Made by a program: the position numbers and the translations under genes. The notes under the pieces are model-generated. The model worked only from the letters and a program-made list of their open reading frames with translations. It had not been told where the DNA came from and did not search any database. A stretch of 38,399 nt of DNA. Origin: a virus. This document shows positions 298-38,399 of this stretch, piece by piece. The DNA is taken from positions 1 to 38,399 of IMG/VR virus record IMGVR_UViG_3300044712_002662, one strand, 5' to 3'. Every line of letters starts with the position of its first letter. The stretch's first letter is position 1.

Positions 298-883
298 GGA
301 GCGCCCTCGGATGACTCAGCAACTTGTCAGTCCGCGGCGACGGCAACAGCCGCGCGGTGATCGGAAACCGCTTTGACCGTTGGACCTTCTCACCGACAAC
401 TCTATTGGCGACCGGAATCGCGACAGAATGAAGGTGGCCCAGGGAGTCGACTACGTTGAAATTCACAAAGTATTCAACAACTGCGCTCGGAGGCCCCATC
501 TTGGAGGACTCCATCTTCCATTCGCCCTTGTAGGACTGGGTCACAATCTGGCCTGGTAGCAGAGTGAACGGAGGAAGGGAACCGCGCCACGCCTGCCATT
601 CAGCATCAAAACGAAAATCCTTTGGATCTGCATTTGGATCAGGCTTCAGCCTCATTGAGACAACCATGCTCGTGATCGCAGCGGGTCGGTTGCCCATGTT
701 GATATAGACGACGTCAGCGGCAAACATTTCTTCGTCGTCCGATATGAAGTTCATGATTACCGCGTCCACGCGATTGTGGCGGCGGAGGTCCCTCCACCAA
801 AAAGGGATCCATGTGCCACATAAGGCAATAACTGAGATCACGATAGCCAGTAGATCTTTGTGCGACGCAACCCAGTCCTTCAT
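281..883 (-). CDS. Membrane-anchored protein of unknown function (probable moron)
   Basis: A 200-residue protein with one hydrophobic segment near the N terminus (about residues 10-29, LLAIVISVIALCGTWIPFWW) followed by Arg-rich WRDLRRHNR. This predicts a signal anchor. The rest is polar and looks beta-rich, compatible with an Ig-like fold, although I recognise no family. The start overlaps the stop of the methyltransferase gene by one base (TGATG). Base composition is strikingly different from the rest of the window: bases 421-480 hold 27 G+C of 60. A foreign, membrane-attached protein in a lysogeny operon suggests a lysogenic-conversion or superinfection-exclusion gene. That role is inference from position and composition only. 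Confidence 0.75.
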   Translation of the reverse strand: MKDWVASHKDLLAIVISVIALCGTWIPFWWRDLRRHNRVDAVIMNFISDDEEMFAADVVYINMGNRPAAITSMVVSMRLKPDPNADPKDFRFDAEWQAWRGSLPPFTLLPGQIVTQSYKGEWKMESSKMGPPSAVVEYFVNFNVVDSLGHLHSVAIPVANRVVGEKVQRSKRFPITARLLPSPRTDKLLSHPRALLETGK

Positions 884-2514
884 CAGGAGAACAACTTCTC
901 TTGCGTGACGGTGGGATCGTCGGCCTTCGCCTTCTTGAAGATCAGCTCACCGCCGCGTGCCACATCGGGATACCGCGGCCGTTCAGAGCCTTCCATTAGG
1001 CCCTCGACGGTGAGGATCTGGATCCGCGGGTACTGCCCGAAGTGCGGCGACTCGTAGAAACCCGAGGAAACGGCCTCCGTCAGCATTGGCTTGGACGGCT
1101 GCGCCAGCGTCACGAATAGCCCCAGGTGCGCCTTCTCCCGCTCCATCGTTCCCCTGAGGTCGCGGACTTGCGCAACGCCAACGTTCTCGCCGCCCTTTAC
1201 CGACACGAGGATCTTCTTTGCCTCGTGCTTCTCGTCCTGGAAGTAGATCAGTCCGTCGATCCCTGAGTCGGCGCCCTTCTTCTTGCCCTGGTACGGCTGT
1301 GCGTTAACCAGAGAGCAGGCCCACCACTGGAACTGGTAACGGTCCCGCTCGGAAAGGTCACGAGCTCCGTCGATGTCCTGAGGAGTACCGTGCACGGCGA
1401 ACTCAATTCCCTTGTAGCGGTCGCGCATGCGCTTCTCGATCAAGGAAATTGCCAGGTGGGTGATGTCGATCCCCACCCAGCGCCGGCCGTTCTTCTGGGC
1501 CGAGTCGACGGCCGTGCCGCAGCCGCAGAACGGATCCAGGACCACGGCGTTCTCGTTCGAAGAGGAGAGGATGATGCGGTCCAGCAAGGCGAGCGGCTTC
1601 TGCGTCGGGTAGCCGAGTCGCTCCGCCGCGTTAGCGGAAATTGGCGGGAGGTCGGTCCAGATGTTCTGCAGGCGCTCGCCCAGGCTGTCGTTCTCGTACA
1701 TCTTCAGCCGCAGCGCGCCCCCGGCCTTCGCTGGGAAATGCAGACGCCCCTCTCGATCATAGAGCTGCATGCGCTCCAGATTGCACGACCACCCGTTTGG
1801 ATGCGGCTGATAGGTGACTCCGTTGGAGGCGGTGTATGGGAAGTGCAGGTTGGGCCGAATCGCTGGGTTCCTCAAGGTCACGGACTGCCACCGGCGGCCG
1901 TCCGGGTCGGTGTTCGGGTACTTCTCCGTCTTCTCTTCCTCGGAGAGCGTGCGGTACTGCTGGTTCCAGACGTACTTGTCGGTCTTCGTATACCAGAGCA
2001 GGGTGTCGGCGATGCTGCCGTAGTTGCGCCCGACGTTGCCGTGGGCGAACGTGCGCTGCCAGGTGATCTCGTTCTGAAAGCGCTCGGCGCCGAACACGCC
2101 GTCAAGCACGATCTTGAGGTAGTGGCTGGCCGTCGGGTCGCAGTGAAGATAGAGACTCCCCGTCGGCTTGAGCACACGCCGGAGCTCGAGGAGGCGGTTG
2201 GCCATCATCGTCAGGTAGGCCATCATGTCGTTCTCGCCAAGGAATCGGCGAAGCGCTCGCATCATTTCGGAGACGTCGGTGTTGTCCTGGCGCAGCAGCT
2301 CGGCGTATTCCGATTCAGCCTGTTCGCCCCAGTGCCAGGTGTCATCGAAAGCCTTGATCTGCGCATCGGACTCGTGGCCCTTCGGGGTCTTGAACAGAAG
2401 GTTGTAGTCGCGGTTCGAGTTGAACGGCGGATCGAGGTAGATCAGGTCAACGGACTCGTCCTTGATGTGCTCGCGCAGGACGTGGAGGTTATCGCCGAAG
2501 TAGAGGGCGTTCAC
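883..2514 (-). CDS. DNA methyltransferase (N4/N6 amino type) fused to a nuclease-like C-terminal domain
   Basis: A 543-residue protein of the amino-methyltransferase family that methylates adenine N6 or cytosine N4 with S-adenosylmethionine. The catalytic motif IV is DPPF at residues 28-31 and precedes the SAM-binding motif I DPFCGCGT at 327-334, which is the beta-class order. YPTQKPLALLDRII at 302-315 is the usual motif X region. Residues about 395-515 form a second domain with GIDG (418-421) and VSVKGG (437-442), resembling the D...(Q/S)xK core of Mrr/PD-(D/E)XK nucleases found at the C terminus of this methylase type. Whether it cuts DNA is unclear because the usual acidic residue before xK is Ser. 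No separate restriction or specificity gene is present. It lies in the lysogeny operon 14 bases after the YozE-like gene. Confidence 0.93.
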   Translation of the reverse strand: MNALYFGDNLHVLREHIKDESVDLIYLDPPFNSNRDYNLLFKTPKGHESDAQIKAFDDTWHWGEQAESEYAELLRQDNTDVSEMMRALRRFLGENDMMAYLTMMANRLLELRRVLKPTGSLYLHCDPTASHYLKIVLDGVFGAERFQNEITWQRTFAHGNVGRNYGSIADTLLWYTKTDKYVWNQQYRTLSEEEKTEKYPNTDPDGRRWQSVTLRNPAIRPNLHFPYTASNGVTYQPHPNGWSCNLERMQLYDREGRLHFPAKAGGALRLKMYENDSLGERLQNIWTDLPPISANAAERLGYPTQKPLALLDRIILSSSNENAVVLDPFCGCGTAVDSAQKNGRRWVGIDITHLAISLIEKRMRDRYKGIEFAVHGTPQDIDGARDLSERDRYQFQWWACSLVNAQPYQGKKKGADSGIDGLIYFQDEKHEAKKILVSVKGGENVGVAQVRDLRGTMEREKAHLGLFVTLAQPSKPMLTEAVSSGFYESPHFGQYPRIQILTVEGLMEGSERPRYPDVARGGELIFKKAKADDPTVTQEKLFS

Positions 2515-2528
2515 GTTGATTTCCTAGG

Positions 2529-2756
2529 TTATGCGGACTTGAGGTACTTCTGATGCTCGTCCCAGGCGGCATACATCGCCTGAATCGTCTCTTGGCTGGC
2601 GCCGGCCTGCCCGAGGTAGCGGCGCCATGCGAGGGCGGTCTTGCGGCGGCTGTCGGGCTTCCTCCCGTGGATCGACACGACGCCCCGCGCGAACTCGCCG
2701 ACCTGGTCAGTACGGGCGATCTGCGTCTTGATCCACTGGACGAACGTCACCGGCAC
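2529..2756 (-). CDS. YozE SAM-like domain protein
   Basis: A 75-residue protein that resembles the YozE SAM-like family (small helical proteins, molecular role unknown). The match is the pattern FVQWIKTQIARTDQVGEFAR at residues 5-24, which mirrors the family's F..WL..Q..RDDPVGDLA signature. It continues with a WRRYL helix (45-49) and a C-terminal AAWDEHQKYL (63-72) like the family's FDEAWEEY end. It is only 4 bases downstream of the repressor stop and 14 bases upstream of the methyltransferase start, so it is co-transcribed with both. Related genes often sit next to phage or conjugative repressor and modification genes. Function in the phage is unknown. Confidence 0.75.
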   Translation of the reverse strand: MPVTFVQWIKTQIARTDQVGEFARGVVSIHGRKPDSRRKTALAWRRYLGQAGASQETIQAMYAAWDEHQKYLKSA

Positions 2757-2760
2757 CCCG

Positions 2761-3549
2761 TCACGCCTTCCTAATCTTCCCGGCCCGCTTCTTCCGCTCC
2801 ACCCGCTCCGGCGCCGCGTCCCCGCCGAGCTCGTCCGCGCTGATCCATACCCGCCACGACCATACCACGCGCCCGACCACGATGTCCGGCCCGTCCGGAT
2901 CGCGCCGCACCCGCTGCTCCCGGTGCGCGCGGTGGTTCTCAGGGATCAGCACCAGCTCCTCGCCGTCGGCCTCGAGGTACTTGACCGTGCAGGCGCCCTC
3001 GTCGTCGACCCTGACCACATAGGGCGCGCCGTCGACCACGTCGCGGTCCTCGCGATCGACGACGACCATGCTACCGTCGGGGAGGACCGGGTCCATCGAG
3101 TCGCCGCGGACGCGCACGGCGACCAGGTTGTGCCGGTGGCCGAGCTGCGACTGGTGGATCCAGGCCCAGTCCTCGACCTGCTCGGACACCACGCGGGCCG
3201 AGCCGGCGGCCACGGCGCCGTCGACGAGCGGGACGGCGATGAAGTCCCGGCGCTGCACCAGGTCGGCCGGCGGGGGCTCGACGGCTGAGGCGAAGAAGAC
3301 CACCGGCTGCGGGAGCTCGGAAGGCTCGAGGCGGGCGGTCGGCTCCTTGCCGGTGAGGAGGTAGTCGGTGCTGACGCCCAGGGCGCGGGCGAGGGCAAGA
3401 ACTATCTCGCCGCCGGGCATCTTCTTCCCGGTTTCGATGTCGTGAAGGAAGCCGGGGGCAGAACCAGTCTCTCTCGACAGCGCCTGAAACGTGAGGCCGC
3501 GCTGCTTTCTGAGGGCTCCAACCCTTGCTCCGAGGCCGTCATTCTTCAT
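2761..3549 (-). CDS. CI-like prophage repressor (XRE HTH plus S24 peptidase domain)
   Basis: A 262-residue LexA/CI-type repressor that should keep the lytic genes silent and be inactivated by RecA-stimulated self-cleavage. The N-terminal XRE helix-turn-helix spans about residues 8-64 (LTFQALSRETGSAPGFL is the DNA-contact region). The C-terminal S24 domain has the catalytic Ser151 in RGDSMDP, the general-base Lys190 in CTVKYLE, and a plausible Ala-Gly cleavage site at 115-116 (GAVAAGSAR). It is transcribed away from the Cro-like gene, with 77 bases between the two starts. An AAGGGGAAA stretch upstream of the ATG can serve as the ribosome site. An operator-like sequence covers its start codon, which suggests autoregulation. 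Confidence 0.95.
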   Translation of the reverse strand: MKNDGLGARVGALRKQRGLTFQALSRETGSAPGFLHDIETGKKMPGGEIVLALARALGVSTDYLLTGKEPTARLEPSELPQPVVFFASAVEPPPADLVQRRDFIAVPLVDGAVAAGSARVVSEQVEDWAWIHQSQLGHRHNLVAVRVRGDSMDPVLPDGSMVVVDREDRDVVDGAPYVVRVDDEGACTVKYLEADGEELVLIPENHRAHREQRVRRDPDGPDIVVGRVVWSWRVWISADELGGDAAPERVERKKRAGKIRKA

Positions 3550-14545: not shown

Positions 14546-15598
14546 ATGTCCGTCCAGAACCTGAGCAAGACCTACAACCCCGGGCCGGAAGTCTCCGGCT
14601 ACTACGACCGGGCCCTGATGCCGACGCGCTACCGCAAGTTCGTGTGGCGCGGGTTCGGCATCGAGAAGAGCGTCCCGGTGAACGAGGGGCGCGACATCAC
14701 GGTCGCCCGCTACGGCCGGCTGTCCGACGCGACCGACGAGCTGCTCGACGGCGTGACCCCGGAGCCGATGACCATCGACCGCACGCCGCTGACGCTGCGG
14801 CTGGTGCCGCACGGGGCGTTCATCCGCTACACCGACCAGGTGCAGGACGTCGGCGTCGACAAGAACGTGCTGCAGGTCTTCTCGCAGACCCTGCAGAAGC
14901 AGGCGCTCTCGACGCTCGACGTGCTCTGCCGGGACGCGATCGTGGCCGGCACCCAGGTCGTCTACGCCGGGTCGCCCGCGGACGGCGACACCGACGGGAA
15001 CTTCCGCGAGCACATCGTCTCGAAGATCACCAAGGCCGCGTTCCAGGGGGCCGAGAGCCTGCTCGACCTGGCGTGGGTCGAGCTGATCACCGAGAAGATC
15101 GACCTGGCGAACAAGTACGGCGCCATGCCGGTCGACGCGGCCTACGTCGCGATCGGGCACACGAACCTCCTCAAGGACCTCGAGGGGCTCAACCTGGTCA
15201 CGACCGGCGACACCGAGGTCTTCGTGCCGGTGCGCAAGTACGCGAGCCAGGGCAACCTGCTCGAGGGCGAGGTCGGCAAGGTCGGTCGCATCCGCATCTG
15301 CCTGAACTCGTCCGGGAAGATCATCCCCGGCGGGAGCGCGGCGGTAGCGTCCACGGGCCTGCGCTCCACCGGCGGGATGATCGACACCTACATCCTCCAG
15401 GTCTTCGGCAAGGGCTACTACGCGAACACCGGCCTCGCCAAGGGCGGGATCAAGTCCAAGGTCAAGCCGATCGGCAGCGGCGGCTCCGAGGACGCCCTCG
15501 ACCAGCGCGGGTCGCTCGGCTGGAAGACCTGGGCCGTCCACGGGATCGTCGACGACGAGTGCGGCGTGCGCATCGAGTGCGGCGCCTCGACCCTGTAA
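14546..15598 (+). CDS. Major capsid protein (N4-gp56-like, HK97 fold)
   Basis: A 350-residue major capsid protein. The N-terminal YYDRALMPTRYRKFVWRGFG and VPVNEGRDITVARYGRL, followed by the LVPHGAFIRYTDQVQDV strand, and the late LGWKTWAVHGIVDD region near the C terminus are typical of the N4-gp56-type capsid family found in short-tailed phages. TAGGAG lies upstream of the ATG. A strong GC hairpin 13 bases after the stop could set the ratio between this highly expressed gene and downstream ones. Confidence 0.92.
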   Translation: MSVQNLSKTYNPGPEVSGYYDRALMPTRYRKFVWRGFGIEKSVPVNEGRDITVARYGRLSDATDELLDGVTPEPMTIDRTPLTLRLVPHGAFIRYTDQVQDVGVDKNVLQVFSQTLQKQALSTLDVLCRDAIVAGTQVVYAGSPADGDTDGNFREHIVSKITKAAFQGAESLLDLAWVELITEKIDLANKYGAMPVDAAYVAIGHTNLLKDLEGLNLVTTGDTEVFVPVRKYASQGNLLEGEVGKVGRIRICLNSSGKIIPGGSAAVASTGLRSTGGMIDTYILQVFGKGYYANTGLAKGGIKSKVKPIGSGGSEDALDQRGSLGWKTWAVHGIVDDECGVRIECGASTL

Positions 15599-24887: not shown

Positions 24888-25685
24888 ATGGCTTACTGGG
24901 ACGACCCGAATTTCAAGTACGACGAGCGGAAGAACAACGGCCCGCTGGGCCCGATCTTCTACCGGCGCGGATCCGGGTACCAGCAGTACAACCCGGCGAC
25001 CGGCCAGTGGAACGTCGGCGGATCGCAGACGGGCGCCGCCGGCTGGGAGCGCTACGACCCGAAGACCGGGACCTGGGTCTACGACGAGGGCCGCACCTGG
25101 GGCGACCTGACGCAGCGGCGCAGCGCGTACCAGGAGTACGTCAACGGCGGCGGCCAGCCGGGCGGGCCCCAGTCGATCGACGCGAACGACCTCGCCAGCA
25201 CGAGCGAGAGCTGGTCGGGCCTCCCCAGCTGGGCGACCGAGGGGATCCGCAAGACGACCAAGAAGTACGCGCCGGAGGCCTTCGCCGGGATCTCCAAGTC
25301 GGTGCGCGACCTGAACAACGCGCCGGAGACGATCGAGCAGCAGAGGAAGAACCTCAACCTGCAGTACCAGCGGGACATCAACACGCCGACCCGGGACGTC
25401 GTCAATAGCGCCATGGCCGGCGCGCTCGGCCGCGGCACCGCGGGCTCGTCGATGATGGGCAACTTCATGGGCCGCATCGGGTCGCAGCTCGCGGCCGGCG
25501 CCGGCCGGCAGCAGACCGAGAGCAACACCTGGGCGGCGAACAGCCTGCTCCAGAACCTGAAGGACCGAGTCAGCGCGAACCAGGGCTTCGGCGCCCTGAT
25601 GGGCGACCTCTGGGGCCAGACCCGCTCGAGCCGCAGCAGCAGCTACAACCCGAACTTCGCCGGCATGGACTTCTCGACGCAGTAG
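24888..25685 (+). CDS. Hypothetical virion protein
   Basis: A 265-residue protein rich in Gly, Asn, Gln and Ser. Its N-terminal third has a doubled aromatic motif (YQQYNPATGQWNVGGSQTG and WERYDPKTGTWVYDEGRTW) that looks like a short WxY-type beta repeat. Residues about 140-240 are helical with VVNSAMAGALGRGTAGSSM and a SQLAAGAGRQQTESNT stretch, such as occurs in internal virion proteins. Its ribosome site is TAGGAGGT, where the TAG is the stop of the previous gene. It starts the internal-protein block. Function unknown. Confidence 0.7.
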   Translation: MAYWDDPNFKYDERKNNGPLGPIFYRRGSGYQQYNPATGQWNVGGSQTGAAGWERYDPKTGTWVYDEGRTWGDLTQRRSAYQEYVNGGGQPGGPQSIDANDLASTSESWSGLPSWATEGIRKTTKKYAPEAFAGISKSVRDLNNAPETIEQQRKNLNLQYQRDINTPTRDVVNSAMAGALGRGTAGSSMMGNFMGRIGSQLAAGAGRQQTESNTWAANSLLQNLKDRVSANQGFGALMGDLWGQTRSSRSSSYNPNFAGMDFSTQ

Positions 25686-25697
25686 GAGGACACGAAC

Positions 25698-26138
25698 ATG
25701 AGCTGGAATTTCAGCAATATCTTCGGAGGCGCGGCCGGCGGCGCTGGGGCGGGCGCATCCTTCGGGCCCTGGGGTGCTGCGATCGGGGGCGTTCTCGGCG
25801 GCCTCGCCGGCGGCCTCAGTGGTGGCGGGTCTTCGAAGAGCGAAACCGAGACGAAGCGCACGTCGACCCCGGTGCGCGTCCGGCTGAAGAGCGGGGCGGT
25901 CGTGACGATGTACGCGCACGGGCCGGGATCCTCGACGACGACCCAGAGCGGGCCCAAGCCGAGCGCCCTCGAGACGGCCGGCGACGTGCTCATGGCCGGC
26001 GGGCTCTGGAAGAAGTACACACAGAAGGACGGCGCCGGCGGCGGCACCCCCGACTGGTTCTCGAAGCTGACCGGCGGCGGCACGGACCCGGTCGTCGGCA
26101 AGAAGCAGACCGGCGACTTCAGCGACAGCTACGTCTAG
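25698..26138 (+). CDS. Glycine-zipper-rich internal virion protein (membrane-active candidate)
   Basis: A 146-residue protein whose first 46 residues are a Gly/Ala-rich hydrophobic stretch, GGAAGGAGAGASFGPWGAAI followed by GGVLGGLAGGLSGGG, the pattern of a glycine zipper that can insert into membranes. The rest is polar, with many Ser/Thr/Lys. Small glycine-zipper proteins occur among phage ejection proteins that help DNA cross the host envelope. It lies between two other internal-type genes; its ribosome site TAGGAGGA includes the previous stop codon. Role inferred from composition and position. Confidence 0.68.
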   Translation: MSWNFSNIFGGAAGGAGAGASFGPWGAAIGGVLGGLAGGLSGGGSSKSETETKRTSTPVRVRLKSGAVVTMYAHGPGSSTTTQSGPKPSALETAGDVLMAGGLWKKYTQKDGAGGGTPDWFSKLTGGGTDPVVGKKQTGDFSDSYV

Positions 26139-26148
26139 GAGCGCGATC

Positions 26149-27438
26149 ATGGGATTCGTCGAAGCGATCCAGAACAGCCCGCTCGGGGACCCCTCCGGCG
26201 ACGGCCTGGTCGTCATGGGCCAGGCGCTGCGCGGCATGGGCGCCGGCACCGGCGTCGCCCCGGCGGCGGCTCTCGCCGAGGGCCTCATGGCGCGGCGGCG
26301 CGAGGAGGTGACCCAGGAGCACACCCGCGGCTTCATCGCTGCGATCGAGTCCGGGGCCAACCCGCAGGCGGCGCTCAAGCAGTTCCCCGCGACCGACACC
26401 GGGTTTCTCTCGGCGATCGCCCAGCACCGGATGCAGCAGCGGGAGGCGCTCGATGCCGAGGCTCGTCGGGAGGCGGCGGCGATCCGGGCCGAGGGTAGGG
26501 CGCAGGCGGGCCAGCGCGCGGACGAGGCGGCGAAAGCCGAAGACGAGGCGGCCAAGGCCGCCGCGATCGCGGCCGAGACGACGCAGGCCGATGCCGCGCG
26601 CCGGAAGCTGGCCGCACCTCGCCCCGTCCCCGGCTTCATGTCAGCACTCGGGCTGGAGCCCCATCCGGTCTACGACGACCGCTCGGTCGATCCGAACCTT
26701 GTGGCGCCGCCGTCGAGCGATGCCTCTCCGCTCGACCTGCCGGGAACGCCGTACCTCGACCAGAGCAGAGAGCAGGTTCCCGACGTCACCGACCGTGGAT
26801 TCATCGCGGCGGGCAAGGACTACCTCGCCAGCCAGGCCGCGCAGGCGCTCATCGGCGCGCGCGAGGCCAACGCCGGCGCCCGCACCGCCACGACCGAGTT
26901 GAAAGATCAGACCAGGTCGGACACCAAGGCCTACTACGACAGGTTGGTAGCGGCAGGAATGGACCCGAGCAAGGTTGATGCCTCCGATTTGACGAGCGTC
27001 GACCCTGGCGTGCTGCGTTCGCTGATCGCGGCCGACGCCGCGGCGAAGCGCCAGGACAAGTCACTCACGACCGTCCCGGCCGCGACGACGGCGAACAACG
27101 CCGCGGCGGCTGCCCGCCAGAACACGGCGCTCGGGACTGTCCCTGCCGCTACGACGGCGACGAACGACGCAGCGACCGCGCGTGCCGACAAGTCCACGGC
27201 GCTGCAGCAGTGGAAGGCGGCCGGGGCGCCGCTGATCGCTCGGGACAAAGCCGACGATGCCCGCCTCGTCCAGTTGCGGACGTTGGTCAACTCGGTGGCT
27301 CCAAAGGCGAAGGCAGACCCCAAGAGCCCGTGGGCTGAACAGCTTGCCGGGTACAAGGCCGAACTGGACGAGATCGCCAAGCGCAAGGCCGAGTACGCCT
27401 TGTGGCAGCAGCAGGGCGAGCAGTTCAAGGTCAAGTAG
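26149..27438 (+). CDS. Ala-rich coiled-coil internal virion protein
   Basis: A 429-residue protein with a long Ala/Glu/Arg helix (about 100-160, ALDAEARREAAAIRAEGRAQ and more) and no Cys. Residues 303-352 hold a tandem repeat with a period of about 22 (TTVPAATTANNAAAAARQ, then GTVPAATTATNDAATARA). The C terminus is a further helix, QQWKAAGAPLIARDK to KRKAEYALWQQ. Such long helical proteins, placed just before a giant polyvalent protein, are typical of internal or ejection proteins of short-tailed phages. Base composition becomes AT-richer from about 26900 on, continuing into the next gene. Start set by TAGGAG before the ATG at 26149. Confidence 0.72.
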   Translation: MGFVEAIQNSPLGDPSGDGLVVMGQALRGMGAGTGVAPAAALAEGLMARRREEVTQEHTRGFIAAIESGANPQAALKQFPATDTGFLSAIAQHRMQQREALDAEARREAAAIRAEGRAQAGQRADEAAKAEDEAAKAAAIAAETTQADAARRKLAAPRPVPGFMSALGLEPHPVYDDRSVDPNLVAPPSSDASPLDLPGTPYLDQSREQVPDVTDRGFIAAGKDYLASQAAQALIGAREANAGARTATTELKDQTRSDTKAYYDRLVAAGMDPSKVDASDLTSVDPGVLRSLIAADAAAKRQDKSLTTVPAATTANNAAAAARQNTALGTVPAATTATNDAATARADKSTALQQWKAAGAPLIARDKADDARLVQLRTLVNSVAPKAKADPKSPWAEQLAGYKAELDEIAKRKAEYALWQQQGEQFKVK

Positions 27439-30400
27439 ATGGCCGACGCCTTCGACGAACTCTGGGAATCGGCACGGCGTTCGACCGGGTACGATACGGC
27501 GCAGGCGGCCGGACCCTCGTCTCCCGCCGTGACTGCTCCGGCGGCTGACGCCTTCGATGCCGCCTGGTCCCAGTCCCTGAAGGCGGTTGGGATGCGCGCC
27601 GTCGCGCCGATCGTCGACCAGGTTGTTCCTTCCCACCAGCCGAACCCGCGGACTGATCCCACCAGTCCCGACTACCAGATGGTCCTCGACCCGCAGCACG
27701 AGGTTGGTACGGACATCCCCTACCACCTGACGCCCGAGGCGCAACTGATCAACGCGATCCCCGGCGCCGCGCAGTTGCGGCCCGTCGGCCGCGCACTCCT
27801 CGACGTCAACGACATGATCGCGAAGACTGCCGAGGCTTTGGACTCCAGCGTTACGCCCGATCAGATGGCGGATCCCAACCGTCAGAACCGCTACACCCGC
27901 GCCCAAGCGATGAACGAGCGCGCCCGCAAGAGCAGGTTGTTCACGCCCCTGCAGGACGAAGTCAATCATCCGTTGGCCGGTGAGATCGTCCAGTCGGCCG
28001 CGGCATCCGCCGCGCTCCCGGTGGCGCTGGCTGCTGTTGGCGTCCCGGCAACGGTCGCGGCGATCCCGACGGTGGGGCTCTTTGCCGGCGCTCAGTACAG
28101 TGACGCCCTTGGCAAGGCCAAGCGCGAGGGCCTGAATGACACAGCCGCCCGGGTCGAGGCCGGCATCGAGGGGATCAGCGAAGGGGCCTGGGAGTACATC
28201 AGCGACATGGCCCTACTGGGGCCGCTGGGGCGAGGCGTGACCAAGTCGGCCGCCAAGGCGATCGCGGAGGCCACGGCCAAACGCAGGGCCGGGTCGATCA
28301 GTGCGATGGCCTTCAAGGATGTGCTTAAGGGGAACCTGACCAAAGACTTCGTGAAGTCGTTCCTCATGGAGACGGGGACCGAGCTCGGAAACACGGCGAC
28401 CCAGTTCGGGGCGCGTAAGGTGTTCGGCATTCAGGAAGATACGGACTCGAAGACGGGAGCCCCGATGACGCTCGGGGCGGAACTCGCGAAGACCGCGCAG
28501 GTTGCCGGGGGAGTCTCGGGAATCTACGGAACGCTGGCCGCGGCGCTCGGCGTCAAGGGCGCCAACCATGCTCGGGAAGTGTTGTCCAGCCCGGACGTCG
28601 ATCGGCGCACCCGTGCCGCGATGAAGGACCAGGTCGTCGGCGAACTGCGGCAACTTGGCCTGAAAACCGAAGCTGCTCTGCTCGATTCCGATTGGGGCAA
28701 CCGCATCGACAAGGGGCTCCCGATCCCTCTCGACCAGCAGGGCCGCGACGAGACGGACCCGCGCGCGCAGGTCAGCTCCCCCGAGGACCTGGTGGCGAAA
28801 ACCATCACCTACGCCGACCGCGCCGCGGCCGCGCGCGACCAGGCGCCGGCCGCCACACCCGGCCCGGCCGTCACGCAGAAGGACCCCGCCAGCCTCCTGT
28901 CCTTCCTGCAGGGCCAGCTCGAGCAGACCGGCCTCGCGCCCGATACGGTCGTCCTGACCCCGCCGGCCAACCTGACCAAGGACCAGAAGACGGTCCAGCA
29001 GCAGTACGCCGAGCGCGGCTTCAACGTCCACTTCTTCGACGTCACCGACGGGCGCCCCGCCGCGGCGGTCAGCGGCGGCCCGACGACGTTCTTCCTCCCG
29101 TCCAACCTCAAGGGCGCCGAGCAGCTCTTCAAGGCGGCGCACGAGGCTGGGCACGGCCTTGACGCCCGGCCCGGAATCGCGACCCAGACGGGGGAGACGC
29201 GCGAGGCCATCGCCCAGGCCATGCCCGAGGACGAGTACGCCGGCCGCGCCTTCCAGCTCGAGGTCGACCGGGCGGCCGCGGGACTCCCCGAGGCTACCCC
29301 GGCCATCGAGTTCGACGAGCTCGTGCAGGACGTGCGGGGCGAGGTCGGACAGGTCGCCGGGCTGGATCCGAAGACTGCCAGCAAGCGCGCAGCCCGGTGG
29401 GCCGCCACGGTCGCCGAGGCCGACCCGACCCGCTGGGAGCGCACGAAGGAGAAGATCGCCCGGATCGCCGCGAGCATCGGCCTCCCGGGCGCCCAGGCTC
29501 CCGACCCGCGGCGGGGCACCACCGAGCAGTGGGGGCGGGTCGCCGCGGCGATCATCTCCGAGAACCATGCTGCCGGGCACCAGGCGAAGACCGTCGTGCG
29601 CCAGCGCCTGGTCGCGGCCCTCTCCCAGCTCCCGGCCATGCAGGAGTCCGGCGTGCGCGCCGCCGGTTCCGACCAGTACCAGAAGTGGAAATCCAACGCG
29701 GCGCAGGCCGCCCCGGCCGCGGCCGTCGCCGCCTCCCCCGCGGAGCCCCGGGGCCGCCGCGGCCTCACCCGCTTCGGGAAGCCCTTCACCCCGCCGCAGC
29801 CTCTTGACGACATCCCCTTGGTCGAGCTCGCCAAGGCCAGCCCCGAGAAGCAGGAGCTCTGGCGCCGGGCGCTGCGCCTGAAGATCGACCAGCCATGGAC
29901 GCTCTCCGAGGTCGTCCTGCGCGATGCGATCGCCGCCGAGGCCCGCCGCGGGAAGGCCGCCAGCACCCCTACCGTGCCGAGCGTAGCGGCCCAGGACGCG
30001 ACTTCCGCCCCTCCCCCTGCCGAGGGTATGGCCCCGGGGGAGATCGCCAGCGGACAGGCCAGCAGCGCCGCGGAAACCGCGCCGGCACCCGCCCCGTCCC
30101 CGGCGGAGGCCAGCGACCGCCGCGGCTGGGAAGGCGGCGGCGCTGGGGTCGTCCCCGAAGGCTGGGAGCCGGACCCGACCGGCAAGCGGGTCTACCGCAA
30201 GAAGAAGCCCCAGAACTCCCCCGAGCCGCCCGAAGCCGCGATCGGCCGCGAGGAGATGAAGAAGCGCCGGGCCTTCGGCAAGGGCAAGAAGACCGATGCT
30301 GGCGGGGCGGTGTTCAACGTCGGCGAGATCGTCAACCACAACTCCTTCGACGAGCCGATGCGCGTCGTCAAGAAGGAGGGCCCCGGCTACGTCCGCGTCG

Positions 30401-33400
30401 TCCCGGCCCGCCAGCGCGGTTCCGAGAACTCCACCCGCGCCGACGTCAACGCCCTGACCCGCGTGACCGGCCCGGCCGAGCCGAAGCTCTCGCTGCCCAG
30501 CAGTTCGTCGGAGCTGCGCCAGCTCGAGGAGGAGTCCTACGGTCCCCGCCGGGCGATGATCGCCGAGGCCCGGGTGGCGGCCGAGCGCCGGGAGCGCGAG
30601 TCGAACCGGAGGACGGGCTCCCAGCCGAGCGAATTCGGCGGCGGCGAGATCAGCGCCAAGTTCTCCCTCGACACCTACCGGCAGCCCGCCTGGTCGCGCC
30701 GCCTGCGCGAGGAGGCCGTCCGCGCCGGCTACGGCGACGAGGTCGTCGACAACGTGCTGGGCACCCTCGAGGCCGCGGCGCAGATGTTTGAGCGACATCC
30801 GGCGATCCTCCCGGGGCGCGGGGCCCGCGGGGCCAAGGGCAACCCCCTCAAGGGCAACGCCGACTTCTACCGGACCCTCGACATCAACAGGCTCTGCCGG
30901 CGCACCCAGCGGTACTATGCGACGATCAGCTCGATCCAGGAGCGGGTCGGGCATCTGCTCTCCCCGGACGAGATGATCTCGCTCGCGCAGGAAATGCGGG
31001 CCAAGGGCGACATCAGCTTCTGCACCTTCTGCTACGTCGAGGCCGGGCGCCGGATGCGCCGCTACCTCGAGAAGCTCTTCCTCGAGGCCGAGGCGACCGA
31101 CATCCCCAAGGGCCGGCTGAACACCCTGCGCTCGCTGCTCCCGGCCCGCAACCGTTCGCTCAAGGACCTGGGCATCTCGAAACAGGACTTCCAGACGGCG
31201 GTCAGCTCGGCCGCCCGTACCCGCGAGTTCCTCGAGCAGCACGGGGCGAAGGGCCAGGCGCTGCTCGACATGTTCGAGAAGTACGCCCTCGGCGCCAAGG
31301 GGACGCTGATCCTGCCCAACGGCACGTACGGCCACCAGCTCCTGCGCTGGTCCAAGGAACTGGTCGATGAGTTCAACTCCCGCGCCGGGCTGCGCGCCTT
31401 CTCGGCGACCGACCTGGACCCGACCCAGATCATGGACCTGAACCAGGCGCTGGCCGACGCGATGGTCAAGGGCCTCGCGATGCACGGGTACAGCAAGGAC
31501 GCCTTCACCGCGCTGATCTACGGCCGCACCGGCCTGAAGATCAACCTCTCGGTCGCCGCCGACGGCCGCAAGGGCTTCAAGGCCGACACCTTCAACGGGA
31601 TGGACTGGGACCTGGCGAAGCGGCTCCGCAAGGAGTACCCCGACGCCGGGACGATCTTCGTCGCGAAGAACCGCGAGCAGCTCGACTGGGCGCTGAAGCA
31701 GGACTGGATCGACTACGTCATCCCGCACCACGCGGCCAACTGGGGCTTCGAGGGGGAGCGGCGCTACTCGGCCCTCGACCTCGAGGAGCTCGCCGACGGC
31801 CAGCGCGAGGAGTGGGCCGACCCGAAGGGGCACCCCGGCCAGAGCCCGAAGGACGTCCACGGGTCGGCGCTCTGGTACACCGGCTTCCTGCGGCGCGCGG
31901 GCAACGACGAGGCGAAGGCCGTTCGCGCCTACCTGGCCTTCTGCGACAAGAACGGGATCATCCCCCGTGTCGACCGCTACCGGGGGCACCCCGGCTACGC
32001 CAAGCTCCTGAAGGACTACGCCCGCACCGACTCCCCGCAGCGCCCGGTGGACGCCAGCCTGATCGACCGTGGGCGGATGACCGAGTACCTGCAGCAGTTC
32101 GTCGACCGCGGCGGTTTCACCGGGGACCAGACGGTCGACCCGGAGTTCGTCGACGAGTTCGTCGGGAAGATGGAGGCCGGGACGGTCGGGACCGTCGAGG
32201 CGATCGCGGCGCGCGAGCAGGAGCTGGCGAAGGAGCGGCCGCTCGCCAGGGAGACGCAGACGGTCAGGCGGATCTTCGGGAAGGTGCGGGGCGGGGCCGT
32301 CGCTTCAGAAACTGAAGCTGTAGCGGGGAAGTTCTCGGTGCCGTCGGGCCACCAGTTTCGTCCGGTTCTTGACCTGTCAGGGGACGAACTCGGGAATTTC
32401 GGGGACGACATGCACGCTCTCCGCAAGGCTGCCGTGGACTGGTATCGGCTGAACCTGCAGCGCCAGGGGCCTGCCCACAGAGATGACCTCGATGACATCC
32501 TTTTCACCCGGATGGGCATGAAGGAGTTCGCGCACTTCGGCGCTGATCCGGCCAAGATGAAGATGGTTGTGGCTCTCAGGCAGATCATCGAGCAAGGCGA
32601 ATACCAAGGGCCCCGAGAGCTGGAGCACAAGCGCAACGATGGAATCGTGAGGTTCCATCCGATCGATGCTGACGTGACCCTGGAGGGCAGGGACTACCGT
32701 GTGCGGGTCCTGATCGGTGAGGACAAATTCCAGAACAAGTTCTTCGACCTGTTCCCGAACATCGAGGAGTACAAAACGAGGAAGGCCCTCAGGGGTTTTG
32801 CTGCCGACAAACCAAGTGCCGGGTCCCCCGAGGGCCGCTCGGGGAGCGTTGCCGCTCCCGGAAAGAATATCGCTCCTCCCGCCAAGGATGTCAACGGGAC
32901 CGAGCCTCCGGTCAAGACGTCCCTCCCGTCGGCCCGCCCCGGTGCCCGGCCGTTCTCCTCCGAGGACGGAGCCGAGGCCCCCGCGGTCACCGACCGGATC
33001 CGCCGCGCCTTCGGCAAGAGAGGGGTCACGGTCGCCCGGTTCGTGGAGAACGCGATCAAGTACTGGCCGGCCGGCGGCAAGCCCCCCGAGGACATCCTTT
33101 CGGGCATCCCCGAGGGTGCCGAGATCCTGCAGCGGGTCGAGCGCACCTGGGCCGAGAGCCACCGCCGGGCCGCCACCTGGATGCGCCCGCTGACCGTGGC
33201 CTACCAGGCCCTCAACCGCGCCGACCGCAAGTACGTCACCCGACACTTCGTCCGCGCCTACGAGGAGGGCGGGGTCGGGCAGTCGTGGCCCTCCGAGGCC
33301 GTGCAGTCCTTCGCCGAGGCGTGGCGCGACGTCAACGACACGGTCGCCGCCGAGGCCGGACAGCTCATCGAGTCCTTCGCCGGCCGGGACCCCGACAACT

Positions 33401-35205
33401 ACGTCCCGCACCGGCTGACCGACGAGGGGCGCACCGCCCTCGAGAAGAAGGCCGGCCCCGAGTGGGAGGCCTTGCGCGAGGCCGCCGAGGTCGCCGGGAT
33501 CGACATTCACGTCCTCGAGGGGATCCGCCAGGACCCGCTGCGCCAGAGCAAGTACGGGTCGATCGACTACGCCCGCATCGCCGAGCTGCCCTGGGAGGTC
33601 ACCCTCCCCGACGGGACCGTCGTCCCGATCCTCGAGACGGACCCGACGTTGCTGTTCGCGCACGTCCGCTCGGCCGCGCGCCGGCTCTCGACTGTCGAGG
33701 AGTTCGGCGGCGACGAGGCCTCGAGCGACTACCTGGACCAGACCGCCGCCGGCCTGATCGCCAGCGGGGGCATGAAGTTCGACGAGGCGAAGGACGCCCT
33801 GTCCCGCATCTGGAACCGCCTCGAGGGCAAGGACGCCCGCGCCGACCAGCAGCTCGACGAGATGACTCACGGGCTCTGGAAGGTCGTCGACTCCATCGTC
33901 GCCAGCCTCTCGCTTTCCGGCGCCGTGATCGGCAACGTCGTCGGCGGGCACCTCCCGCAGTCGGTGCGGATGGGCTTCGGGGACACCGCGCGCGCCTTCG
34001 CCGAGGCGTACACGACCAGCCTGAAGAACCCCGACCTCGCCGAACTGCACGCCCTGGTCGACCTCGAGGGCGACTTGCTGCAGGAGCTGGCCGACACCGA
34101 GACGCTCTCCGGGCGCGCGGCCAAGGGCGCCGGCACCCTGCTCCGGGCGACCGGTTTCGTCGCGGCCAACCGCCGGATCAACCTCGCGGTCGCCGTCGCG
34201 ATGCAGCGGCGCAACCTCGACCTGATGCTCGACGCGATCCGCCAGGACAAGGACTCCGTCTGGGAGCGGCGCTGGGGTAAGGATGCCGGGGCGGCCCGCC
34301 GCTACCTGCAGGAGGAGCTGAAGTTCTCCGAGGCCGACGTCGAGCGCATGGTCCTCGAGGGGCCGTCCGACAAGGACATGAGCCGGGCGATCGGCAAGCA
34401 GCTCGAGCTGGTCAACGCGATGAACGAGTCCCCCGGATCGCGGCCGCGGTGGGTCGCGCACCCGCTCTGGCGCATGGCCTTCGCCTACTCGACCTTCGTC
34501 CGCAAGATGTACGACACCACCAAGTACACCGTGAACGAGGCCAAGGCCGGAAACGTGCGGCCGCTCGCGACCCTGATCCTCGCCGGCGCCCCGACCGCCG
34601 CGGCGATGGCCGCGATCAAGAACTGGCTGAAGGACCGCGAGGACGAGGACGAGGGCTTCTGGGACGGGCTGCTCGGCTTCCTGACGGAGACGGGCGCGCT
34701 CGGCCTCGCCGGGTCCTTCCGGTACGCGATCGCCCGGATGAACGACCCGAAGGCCGACTTCTTCACCGACACCTTTAAGCCCCCGCACCTCGAGGTCGGC
34801 TGGAAGGTCGGCAAGGGCGCGGCGCTGGCCGTCAGGGACATGGACATCAAGCCCCTCTGGAAGGGCCTCGCGAGCGCCGGCTCCGGGATCGACATCATCG
34901 ACAAGCAGATGACCAGGCGGGGCATCCTGCCGAGCCGAAAGACGATCACCGACGAGGACACCGGGGAGTCCGTCACGGCCACGCGGCGCCAGCGCGAGTA
35001 CGCCGAGCGCCTGATCGACCAGGTCTACGTCCGACGCACCACCCGGGCGGGGGTAGTTCGCAACCCCCTCGACCCGGTTCCCAGCAAGTTCCGCCCGGCC
35101 ACCACGCGCCGGCTCGTGGCGGATCTGCGCGCCGACGGCCTGACCGACGAGCAGATCCTGACCCTCATCGAGGACGCCCGCGCCCGACGCGCGCGGGAGA
35201 AGTAG
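27439..35205 (+). CDS. Giant polyvalent internal virion protein (2588 residues)
   Basis: One uninterrupted 2588-residue protein. (1) Residues 1-470: two short DAFD-x-x-W repeats near the start, then a hydrophobic region about 195-230 (LPVALAAVGVPATVAAIPTV). (2) About 475-650: metallopeptidase-like domain with HEAGH at 568-572, in KAAHEAGHGLDARPG. (3) About 650-1070: Pro/Ala-rich linkers with small helical domains. (4) About 1075-1560: domain with CTFC (Cys1195, Cys1198; FCTFCYVEAGRRM), FSATDLDP (1321-1328), GLKINLS and YVIPHHAANWG (1426-1436). (5) About 1640-1785: LPD3-like (BECR-type) domain in an AT-richer stretch. (6) About 1855-2588: long helical C-terminal domain with two hydrophobic helices (near 2165 and 2376). 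Such proteins are known as polyvalent proteins and are thought to enter the cell with the DNA. It likely acts on host targets early in infection; the enzyme activities are untested. Confidence 0.85.
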   Translation: MADAFDELWESARRSTGYDTAQAAGPSSPAVTAPAADAFDAAWSQSLKAVGMRAVAPIVDQVVPSHQPNPRTDPTSPDYQMVLDPQHEVGTDIPYHLTPEAQLINAIPGAAQLRPVGRALLDVNDMIAKTAEALDSSVTPDQMADPNRQNRYTRAQAMNERARKSRLFTPLQDEVNHPLAGEIVQSAAASAALPVALAAVGVPATVAAIPTVGLFAGAQYSDALGKAKREGLNDTAARVEAGIEGISEGAWEYISDMALLGPLGRGVTKSAAKAIAEATAKRRAGSISAMAFKDVLKGNLTKDFVKSFLMETGTELGNTATQFGARKVFGIQEDTDSKTGAPMTLGAELAKTAQVAGGVSGIYGTLAAALGVKGANHAREVLSSPDVDRRTRAAMKDQVVGELRQLGLKTEAALLDSDWGNRIDKGLPIPLDQQGRDETDPRAQVSSPEDLVAKTITYADRAAAARDQAPAATPGPAVTQKDPASLLSFLQGQLEQTGLAPDTVVLTPPANLTKDQKTVQQQYAERGFNVHFFDVTDGRPAAAVSGGPTTFFLPSNLKGAEQLFKAAHEAGHGLDARPGIATQTGETREAIAQAMPEDEYAGRAFQLEVDRAAAGLPEATPAIEFDELVQDVRGEVGQVAGLDPKTASKRAARWAATVAEADPTRWERTKEKIARIAASIGLPGAQAPDPRRGTTEQWGRVAAAIISENHAAGHQAKTVVRQRLVAALSQLPAMQESGVRAAGSDQYQKWKSNAAQAAPAAAVAASPAEPRGRRGLTRFGKPFTPPQPLDDIPLVELAKASPEKQELWRRALRLKIDQPWTLSEVVLRDAIAAEARRGKAASTPTVPSVAAQDATSAPPPAEGMAPGEIASGQASSAAETAPAPAPSPAEASDRRGWEGGGAGVVPEGWEPDPTGKRVYRKKKPQNSPEPPEAAIGREEMKKRRAFGKGKKTDAGGAVFNVGEIVNHNSFDEPMRVVKKEGPGYVRVVPARQRGSENSTRADVNALTRVTGPAEPKLSLPSSSSELRQLEEESYGPRRAMIAEARVAAERRERESNRRTGSQPSEFGGGEISAKFSLDTYRQPAWSRRLREEAVRAGYGDEVVDNVLGTLEAAAQMFERHPAILPGRGARGAKGNPLKGNADFYRTLDINRLCRRTQRYYATISSIQERVGHLLSPDEMISLAQEMRAKGDISFCTFCYVEAGRRMRRYLEKLFLEAEATDIPKGRLNTLRSLLPARNRSLKDLGISKQDFQTAVSSAARTREFLEQHGAKGQALLDMFEKYALGAKGTLILPNGTYGHQLLRWSKELVDEFNSRAGLRAFSATDLDPTQIMDLNQALADAMVKGLAMHGYSKDAFTALIYGRTGLKINLSVAADGRKGFKADTFNGMDWDLAKRLRKEYPDAGTIFVAKNREQLDWALKQDWIDYVIPHHAANWGFEGERRYSALDLEELADGQREEWADPKGHPGQSPKDVHGSALWYTGFLRRAGNDEAKAVRAYLAFCDKNGIIPRVDRYRGHPGYAKLLKDYARTDSPQRPVDASLIDRGRMTEYLQQFVDRGGFTGDQTVDPEFVDEFVGKMEAGTVGTVEAIAAREQELAKERPLARETQTVRRIFGKVRGGAVASETEAVAGKFSVPSGHQFRPVLDLSGDELGNFGDDMHALRKAAVDWYRLNLQRQGPAHRDDLDDILFTRMGMKEFAHFGADPAKMKMVVALRQIIEQGEYQGPRELEHKRNDGIVRFHPIDADVTLEGRDYRVRVLIGEDKFQNKFFDLFPNIEEYKTRKALRGFAADKPSAGSPEGRSGSVAAPGKNIAPPAKDVNGTEPPVKTSLPSARPGARPFSSEDGAEAPAVTDRIRRAFGKRGVTVARFVENAIKYWPAGGKPPEDILSGIPEGAEILQRVERTWAESHRRAATWMRPLTVAYQALNRADRKYVTRHFVRAYEEGGVGQSWPSEAVQSFAEAWRDVNDTVAAEAGQLIESFAGRDPDNYVPHRLTDEGRTALEKKAGPEWEALREAAEVAGIDIHVLEGIRQDPLRQSKYGSIDYARIAELPWEVTLPDGTVVPILETDPTLLFAHVRSAARRLSTVEEFGGDEASSDYLDQTAAGLIASGGMKFDEAKDALSRIWNRLEGKDARADQQLDEMTHGLWKVVDSIVASLSLSGAVIGNVVGGHLPQSVRMGFGDTARAFAEAYTTSLKNPDLAELHALVDLEGDLLQELADTETLSGRAAKGAGTLLRATGFVAANRRINLAVAVAMQRRNLDLMLDAIRQDKDSVWERRWGKDAGAARRYLQEELKFSEADVERMVLEGPSDKDMSRAIGKQLELVNAMNESPGSRPRWVAHPLWRMAFAYSTFVRKMYDTTKYTVNEAKAGNVRPLATLILAGAPTAAAMAAIKNWLKDREDEDEGFWDGLLGFLTETGALGLAGSFRYAIARMNDPKADFFTDTFKPPHLEVGWKVGKGAALAVRDMDIKPLWKGLASAGSGIDIIDKQMTRRGILPSRKTITDEDTGESVTATRRQREYAERLIDQVYVRRTTRAGVVRNPLDPVPSKFRPATTRRLVADLRADGLTDEQILTLIEDARARRAREK
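32302..32318. repeat. Inverted repeat inside the polyvalent gene
   Basis: GCTTCAG (32302-32308) and CTGAAGC (32312-32318) form a perfect 7-bp stem with an AAA loop. It lies exactly where the base composition drops and the LPD3-like segment begins, so it may mark one edge of a recombined module. It is translated as part of the protein and need not be regulatory. Confidence 0.45.
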
Positions 35206-37385: not shown

Positions 37386-38399
37386 CTACTGCTCGGCCTT
37401 CTTGTAGGAGATCCGCGCCACCGTCCCGGCGAGGTGGGCGGGGGACAGGTGCGCGTAGATCCGCGTCGTCTCCTGCGATGAGTGACCGAGGAGCTTGCTG
37501 ACCGTGTAGAGGTCCACACCGCTCGACACGAGCGTCCCGGCGAACGTGTGCCTGAGGGTGTGGACCCCGACTCCCGGCTCGAGCCCGGCCCGCGCCGCGG
37601 CCCTGCCGACGGCCGTCCGCAGCGAGTTGTGGTGGTGCTCCGGGAAGGGCGCCGGCAGCCGCGCCTTGCGCCGGCGCGCGAGGATCGGCGCGAGCTCCTC
37701 GTGGATCGGGACCAGGCGGTGCTTGTCGCCGCGGCGCTTGCCGAACGTCTTGAGGTTCGTCACCCGGATCGCGTCCGGCAGCACGTCGGACCACTTCAGC
37801 GCCCAGAGCTCCCCGAGGCGCACGCCGGTGTAGAGGTAGGCCGCGACGTAGTCGCCCAGGTCCGGCCAGGAGTCCCGGTGCTGGCCGGTGGCGCAGGCCG
37901 CCAGCAGCCGCGCGGCCTCGTCGGGGTCGAGCACCCGCAGGTCCTTCGAGTCCCTGGTCGGCAGGTTCGGGATCGCCTTGAAGGGGTGCGTCCCCTTTGG
38001 GCCGTAGACCATCCTGATGAAGATGAGCTCGTTGTTCACGGTCTTCGATCGCACCGACTGCAGCCGGTGCTCGATGTAGCGGCGCAGGCCGGTGACGTCG
38101 ACGTCGACCTCCGTGCCGAAGAACTTCAGGAAGTGCGCCGCCATCTCCCGGTAGCGCACGACGGTCCCCGGGGCCTTGCCCGTGACGTTGTCGCGCAGGA
38201 ACTCCTCGAGGCGCTGGGCGAGCGTGCGCTTCTTTGCCAGGGCAGGGAAGCCGGCCTTGCCCCGCTGGCGATCCGACTCGATTTCTGACAGGCGCAGGCG
38301 CGCGAGCTCCTCGTTCTCGCCGAGGCTGCGGCGCACGGGTTTCCCGTCGATGAAGACGTTCAGGTACCAGCAGTTTCCGCGCTTGTAGACGGTCGCCAT
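37386..38399 (-). CDS. int: Tyrosine recombinase (phage integrase)
   Basis: A 337-residue tyrosine recombinase that should join phage and host attachment sites. The catalytic set is complete: Arg194 in TGVRLGEL, Lys217 in LKTFGKR, His280 and Arg283 in HTLRHTF, His306 in LLGHSS, and the nucleophile Tyr315 in RIYAHLS. The N-terminal part has an arm-binding-like segment (MATVYKRGNCWYLNVFIDG) and a core-binding domain (about 60-145). The ATG is the last three bases of the window. It converges on the lysis genes with only three bases between stops, leaving no non-coding attachment site at its 3' side. If the molecule is circular, it is the last gene of the repressor operon. Confidence 0.95.
   Translation of the reverse strand: MATVYKRGNCWYLNVFIDGKPVRRSLGENEELARLRLSEIESDRQRGKAGFPALAKKRTLAQRLEEFLRDNVTGKAPGTVVRYREMAAHFLKFFGTEVDVDVTGLRRYIEHRLQSVRSKTVNNELIFIRMVYGPKGTHPFKAIPNLPTRDSKDLRVLDPDEAARLLAACATGQHRDSWPDLGDYVAAYLYTGVRLGELWALKWSDVLPDAIRVTNLKTFGKRRGDKHRLVPIHEELAPILARRRKARLPAPFPEHHHNSLRTAVGRAAARAGLEPGVGVHTLRHTFAGTLVSSGVDLYTVSKLLGHSSQETTRIYAHLSPAHLAGTVARISYKKAEQ

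Follow-up and report, generated by a model that had tools for sequence, protein, structure and literature searches.

The locus and its phage

What does a single protein of 2588 residues, encoded past the virion genes of an uncultured phage, do, and what chemistry belongs to the one module that holds all of its cysteines? The window analysed here is an entire virus record of 38,399 bases and high GC content. It encodes an SU10-type portal protein (SU10_portal, PF23899; 11117..13141, + strand; Pfam E 2.7e-73), a major head protein assigned by a PHROG match (phrog_1357; 14546..15598, +) and an integrase. The phage is placed among the podoviruses because of the SU10_portal match and, taken together with the head protein and the integrase, the record is that of a podovirus-like phage. 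The integrase is of the tyrosine type (Phage_integrase; 37386-38399, - strand), and given its presence the phage is probably temperate. Close to the record edge, positions 883-2514 (- strand) encode an N6/N4 DNA methylase with a C-terminal Mrr-like/NA-iREase1 domain.

The giant gene occupies 27439..35205 on the plus strand, downstream of the portal and head genes. The first-pass annotation had read it as one gene without internal stop, and it is indeed an intact, ATG-started frame of 2588 codons with zero internal stops, whose ATG abuts the stop of the preceding gene (TAG ATG). GC content by codon position (69/49/92%) matches that of the other window genes, whereas the long antisense ORFs have their GC maximum at codon position 1. 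The forward frame is therefore the coding one.

Modules of the giant protein

LPD3 is the sole Pfam domain recognised in the giant protein (PF18798, residues 1657-1767; 32407..32739, +; E 4e-17, 62.9 bits against a gathering cut-off of 27). It scores well above that cut-off and falls inside the stretch, residues 1640-1785, previously described as LPD3-like. A PHROGs search returned zero matches. Nearer the N-terminus, a zincin-like metallopeptidase region (approximately residues 485-700; 28891..29538, +) is recognised by its motif only. The HEAGH site reported at 568-572 is present and forms part of HEAGHGLD (residues 568-575; 29140-29163, +), in which the HEXXH of H568-H572 is followed by D575. 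An Asp three residues past HEXXH (HEXXHxxD) is the signature of one widespread clade of phage-type polyvalent metallopeptidases (PMC5512222), and HEAGHGLD fits it in both the HEXXH and the Asp. A Pfam search of this region was without match; by eye, H532 and several Glu residues are candidates for the conserved His at the end of zincin strand 2 and the Glu of the second helix.

Other parts are recognisable by composition or hydropathy. A hydrophobic, Ala/Val/Gly-rich stretch detected in a Kyte-Doolittle scan (residues 182-218; 27982..28092, +) is possibly a membrane-insertion segment. Residues 841-960 (29959..30318, +) form a low-complexity linker rich in Pro, Ala, Ser, Gly and Glu, and the C-terminal region (residues 1860-2588; 33016..35202, +) contains two hydrophobic stretches (2146-2170 and 2375-2394). 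No relative of the whole giant protein was found in IMG/VR, GTDB genomes or cultured phages, and none of its N-terminal, metallopeptidase and C-terminal regions among the collected giant proteins. An LPD38 profile built from two giant-protein loci (L031 and L052) also missed its C-terminus. Judged by sequence comparison, the giant protein is an orphan outside LPD3 and the cysteine-containing (Cys) domain described below.

The proposal that this is a phage-type polyvalent protein is supported by LPD3, by the HEXXHxxD motif and by relatives whose giant ORFs carry ART-PolyVal, LPD22, LPD23, LPD38, zeta toxin and C5 methylase/DNA-methylase domains. At least two effector-type or LPD domains (LPD3, the zincin motif and the Cys domain) are joined in one large chain that is encoded with phage structural genes. 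In Pfam, PHROGs or cultured phages no segment of it showed full-length similarity to a tape-measure or core protein, the outcome that would have counted against the first-pass reading. Directly upstream of the giant gene, the relatives encode internal virion proteins (phrog_308, phrog_511), endolysin/lytic proteins and a tail protein, and in two related loci a major head protein lies just downstream. The phrog_1357 head protein of the window is homologous to the head proteins adjoining giant genes in related loci. At one locus the Cys-domain giant has, two genes upstream of it, a gene for a canonical radical SAM protein (L041:1368-2585; phrog_1802, E 2e-24).

The Cys domain defines a new family

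The first-pass annotation had noted a Cys-containing domain at 1075-1560 within a combination of modules that it could not place. The domain is genuine, is conserved in other phages and extends over about residues 1085-1560 (30691..32118, +). All four cysteines of the giant protein lie in it: C1153 (30895..30897, +), six residues past strand beta1 (1144-1147), the pair C1195-x2-C1198 (31021..31032, +) and C1502 (31942..31944, +). The first route to its family was a DNA pattern for CxFCYVE, with which two of the three loci obtained were chance matches. The giant ORF of locus L003 matches residues 1062-1435 at E 4e-24, and alignment-guided scans led to 80 viral loci (IMG/VR) and four genome loci with a Cys domain. 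In every case but two genome fragments, the ORF that holds the domain has 1.2 to 5.7 thousand residues, and relatives share almost no other part with the window protein.

Conservation was counted over 65 non-redundant members, which share 19-28% identity with the window domain. C1153, C1195 and C1198 are invariant (65/65) and are always spaced as C-x41-50-C-x2-C (65/65), while C1502 is kept in 62/65. Also invariant are D1148, R1319, S1322, D1325, D1333, I1428, H1431 and P1509. The domain fits no Pfam or PHROG family, the best family hint being a single member of the 65 that matches GP88 at E 0.0014 (Pfam). On the strength of these alignments, the Cys domain is a new, previously unnamed and widespread family within a known kind of protein. 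The module singled out as unplaced was the right one, and it now belongs to a new family with radical-SAM/DUF5131-like features.

Members also carry large inserts and diverge extremely outside the motifs, as might be expected of a degenerate, non-catalytic barrel with a structural or binding role only. We consider such a role very improbable: the three cysteines together with R1319, S1322, D1325, D1333 and H1431 do not vary even at this low identity, and the cysteines are kept in chains that otherwise shed this residue.

Two compact relatives bear on the long spacing between the first and second cysteines. CDS0078 of Moorella phage MTATph1 (WPA89565.1, 231 aa, annotated as hypothetical; OR602862.1 92182-92877, equal to L210:2839-3534, - strand) was found as a tblastn match to the core of family member L022 and matches the Cys-domain family profile at 62 bits. 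It retains D1148, the three Cys, R1204, G1317, R1319, S1322, D1325 and D1333, as well as D1340, K1353, N1369 and S1371. Its cysteine loop reads SLDLTTIC-x8-CPYCYV. The second compact CX8CX2C domain, on a 91-kb viral contig (L211, ORF around 2501-3391), belongs to an ORF of at least 1275 aa and has a Cys-rich C-terminal motif resembling that of CDS0078. Since both relatives carry CX8CX2C, the preferred reading of the 41-residue gap in the giant-protein branch is an insertion into an otherwise compact three-Cys loop. Against a radical SAM profile, CDS0078 scored 10.9 bits, above the maxima of 300 full shuffles (4.9) and of 300 shuffles that kept the Cys motif (9.7); against a DUF5131 profile it did not exceed its shuffles.

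Predicted fold and possible kinship with radical SAM and DUF5131 proteins

AlphaFold2 was run on 65-row alignments for the window domain (pLDDT 85, pTM 0.87) and for the L022 core (pLDDT 94, pTM 0.91). In both models a strand pair is followed directly by the first Cys, two inserted helices, the CxxC pair and then alternating strands and helices. The Cys domain is accordingly predicted to be a (beta/alpha) barrel with its first Cys, C1153 in the window, just past beta1, an order of secondary structure like that of radical SAM enzymes, whose cluster cysteines follow beta1 of a partial (beta/alpha) barrel. Foldseek searches of the PDB with the L022 core returned mainly TIM barrels, all insignificant, among which the radical SAM protein QueE (5th5; E 0.4, prob 0.33) came eleventh. 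The same library gave no significant fold match to a solved radical SAM member and nothing meaningful for the window model. In the Foldseek viral library, the one significant match was an uncharacterised Caudovirales protein (E 4e-20), and GP88 proteins and a phage radical SAM protein were among the better-probability but insignificant matches.

Kinship was also assessed with profiles of 27 radical SAM proteins and 22 DUF5131 proteins, with DHDPS and AP_endonuc_2 as unrelated-barrel controls. In the test that we relied on, inserts were excised, natural order was kept, the first Cys was omitted and gap penalties were relaxed. The global score was 49 against radical SAM (shuffles 5±3) and 42 against DUF5131 (14±7), compared to 12 against DHDPS (9±6) and 22 against AP_endonuc_2 (9±5), with the caveat that the penalties were relaxed after the fact and that a positive result also requires excision of the inserts. 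Much of the score stems from the CxxC region, although a smaller excess persists for radical SAM and DUF5131 when the CxxC columns are omitted too. The ordered motifs of DUF5131 and GP88 (CXnCX2CY.E, S.SD, TK, S, ID..I and C) are collinear with those of the Cys domain under relaxed gaps, and the DUF5131 motif-set score is higher than that of all shuffles except one outlier of about 135, an end-column artefact. A trimmed domain that reached 87% probability was rejected as evidence, the cut having built a CX3CX2C motif by hand; its score was 45, and shuffles that kept this motif reached as much as 41.

Standard searches were negative. Default HHalign of the uncut Cys domain against radical SAM, GP88 and DUF5131 gave no significance, and the giant protein had no match to radical SAM (PF04055) in Pfam, PHROGs and NCBIfam. 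Radical SAM is absent from the Pfam and PHROGs families listed for the 65 members, DUF5131 is absent from the Pfam families listed, and the gathering score of DUF5131/GP88 is not reached. The canonical CX3CX2C motif is missing from 65/65 members. Because the curated cut-offs failed, the domain is described here as radical-SAM-like and is not classed as radical SAM. In the profile comparisons radical SAM and DUF5131 come out ahead of the other TIM barrels; this is supportive, not decisive, and suggestive of a domain that may work like a radical SAM enzyme without being filed as one. Radical-SAM chemistry in the Cys domain is plausible but unproven, since the curated cut-offs were missed and no fold match to a radical SAM protein was significant.

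The strongest competing reading is a zinc-dependent barrel that uses the family cysteines and H1431. The giant protein would still be an ejected polyvalent protein, but its Cys domain would be a TIM-barrel enzyme for zinc or another metal with a Cys3/His or Cys4 site. CxxC pairs often bind zinc, the invariance of H1431 and near-invariance of C1502 would allow either site, and the best PDB fold matches, none significant, are ordinary TIM barrels. On the other hand, the radical SAM and DUF5131 profiles resemble the Cys domain more closely than do those of the two other barrel families, and C1502 is missing in three members. In the predicted models the three Cys are positioned as in a radical-SAM cluster loop, past beta1, and the compact relatives combine CX8CX2C with a further Cys-rich motif at the C-terminus. 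We give the metal-site enzyme an appreciable but clearly minor probability. The explanation that we prefer, with slightly better than even credence, is that the giant protein is polyvalent, is ejected and has as its core module a divergent radical-SAM-type [4Fe-4S]/SAM enzyme.

Cysteine depletion and probable ejection

Three Cys-free genes precede the giant gene and encode putative ejection-cassette partners: a 265-aa protein (24888..25685, +), a 146-aa Gly-zipper protein with weak tape-measure similarity (25698..26138, +) and a 429-aa Ala-rich protein (26149..27438, +). Searches with the last yielded no relatives; a STAS_2 Pfam match in it looks like low-complexity similarity and was set aside. 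There is thus no cysteine in the 840 residues of these three proteins, nor in the about 2100 residues of the giant protein outside the Cys domain, as against 9.5 Cys per 1000 residues in the other window proteins. The 70 distinct relatives have 8.7 Cys per 1000 inside the domain and 1.2 outside.

Among control proteins, T7 gp15 and gp16, N4 vRNAP, gp51 and gp52, and P22 gp7, gp20 and gp16 are without cysteine, and T7 gp14 has one. An earlier paper noted that N4-type vRNAP lacks Cys and connected this with its passage through the tail at injection (PMC3915230). The ejected proteins of T7, N4 and P22 are almost all Cys-free, and this may be a general signature.

The position of the giant gene past the virion genes is consistent with an ejected protein, and so is the absence of cysteine from the three upstream genes and from the chain outside the Cys domain. 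As in T7 gp16, a Cys-free chain is encoded in an internal-virion gene set, with the exception of the Cys domain. Cysteine depletion, gene order and the context of the relatives together indicate, indirectly, that the giant protein is probably ejected into the host with the DNA. It could instead be made and act late, or be merely a structural core protein that never reaches the cytoplasm. T7 gp9, P22 scaffold and gp26, and N4 head protein and gp57 are Cys-free too though they are not ejected, and the N- and C-terminal parts of the giant protein are without relatives. However, conserved catalytic-looking modules and effector partners (ART, zeta toxin, methylases) would be unexpected for a scaffold, and the gene lies past internal virion/endolysin genes. 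We regard a late or purely structural role as improbable.

Proposed mechanism and its meaning

Under the ejected radical-SAM-type reading, the giant protein would be encoded last in a Cys-free ejection cassette (24888-35205), as its largest product, and would be packaged in the head and enter the host together with the DNA by way of the short tail. The chain would pass the tail largely unfolded, its scarcity of cysteine preventing disulfides en route. Once inside, the zincin-like domain may cleave the chain itself (autoproteolysis) or host proteins, and the modules would then act separately. C1153, C1195 and C1198 would be the ligands of a [4Fe-4S] cluster assembled by host machinery inside the cell. 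This cluster would cleave S-adenosylmethionine, and the radical so formed would alter a macromolecule of the host or the phage in early takeover or counter-defence. What the analysis shows is the coding frame, the LPD3 domain, the Cys family conserved in giant phage proteins, the barrel prediction, the depletion of cysteine and the virion-gene context of relatives; that the protein is ejected and cuts itself, and that it carries an Fe-S cluster and acts on a substrate by SAM chemistry, are steps that we infer.

Extended to the family, the proposal is that dozens of uncultured short-tailed phages inject, along with their DNA, a giant unfolded apo-chain whose one cysteine-bearing module belongs to a new [4Fe-4S]/SAM radical family, which the cluster-assembly machinery of the host activates and which modifies a macromolecule of host or phage at the start of infection. 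We hold this wider proposal a little more doubtfully, as something short of an even bet. Polyvalent proteins are a known phage means of delivering many activities together, and a recurring, unnamed module that keeps its Cys in giants that shed cysteine suggests a chemistry worth carrying through the tail. If the reading is true, the Cys domain would be, to our knowledge, the first radical SAM enzyme predicted to be injected. The Cys-depletion signature may also provide a simple sequence test for ejected proteins.

Comparison with known systems

The giant protein resembles described polyvalent proteins (Iyer et al., 2017; PMC5512222) in being a large multidomain phage protein with LPD3, a zincin-type motif and a virion-gene neighbourhood, and in having relatives that bear ART-PolyVal, LPD22, LPD23 and LPD38. 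It differs from them in its Cys domain, to which the Pfam models of LPD and other polyvalent domains gave no match; the terms "radical SAM" and "cysteine" are both absent from the main text of that paper. N4 vRNAP and T7 gp16 are similarly giant and the last of an internal virion gene set, the window protein being Cys-free like them except for one domain, and N4 vRNAP likewise carries a polyvalent metallopeptidase (PMC5512222). Unlike both, the window protein has a four-cysteine module, and a Pfam search found no RNA polymerase or lysozyme/lytic transglycosylase domain in it.

With radical SAM proteins (PF04055), among which QueE-type members also have unusual Cys spacing, the Cys domain shares three Cys past beta1 of a predicted (beta/alpha) barrel and a collinear profile alignment over the barrel. 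It departs from them in having CX41-50CX2C instead of CX3CX2C, in lying below Pfam detection and in lacking a significant fold match. DUF5131 (PF07505, phage Gp37/Gp68) and GP88 (PF17338) proteins have CX6-13CX2CY(A)E followed by SMSDLF, LTK, SVE, IDWVI and QC...VPFFFK, and in a relaxed-gap alignment the window domain shows SFSDFE, YTK, NLS, IDFII and C...PKF in the same order. In contrast to the window family, which falls below their curated cut-offs, they are small standalone proteins and not modules of giant, probably ejected ones. MTATph1 CDS0078 likewise stands alone, without long inserts, and differs from the window domain in its CX8CX2C loop and its additional C-terminal CX5CX2CX3C motif, but it keeps most of the invariant residues of the window family and matches its profile.
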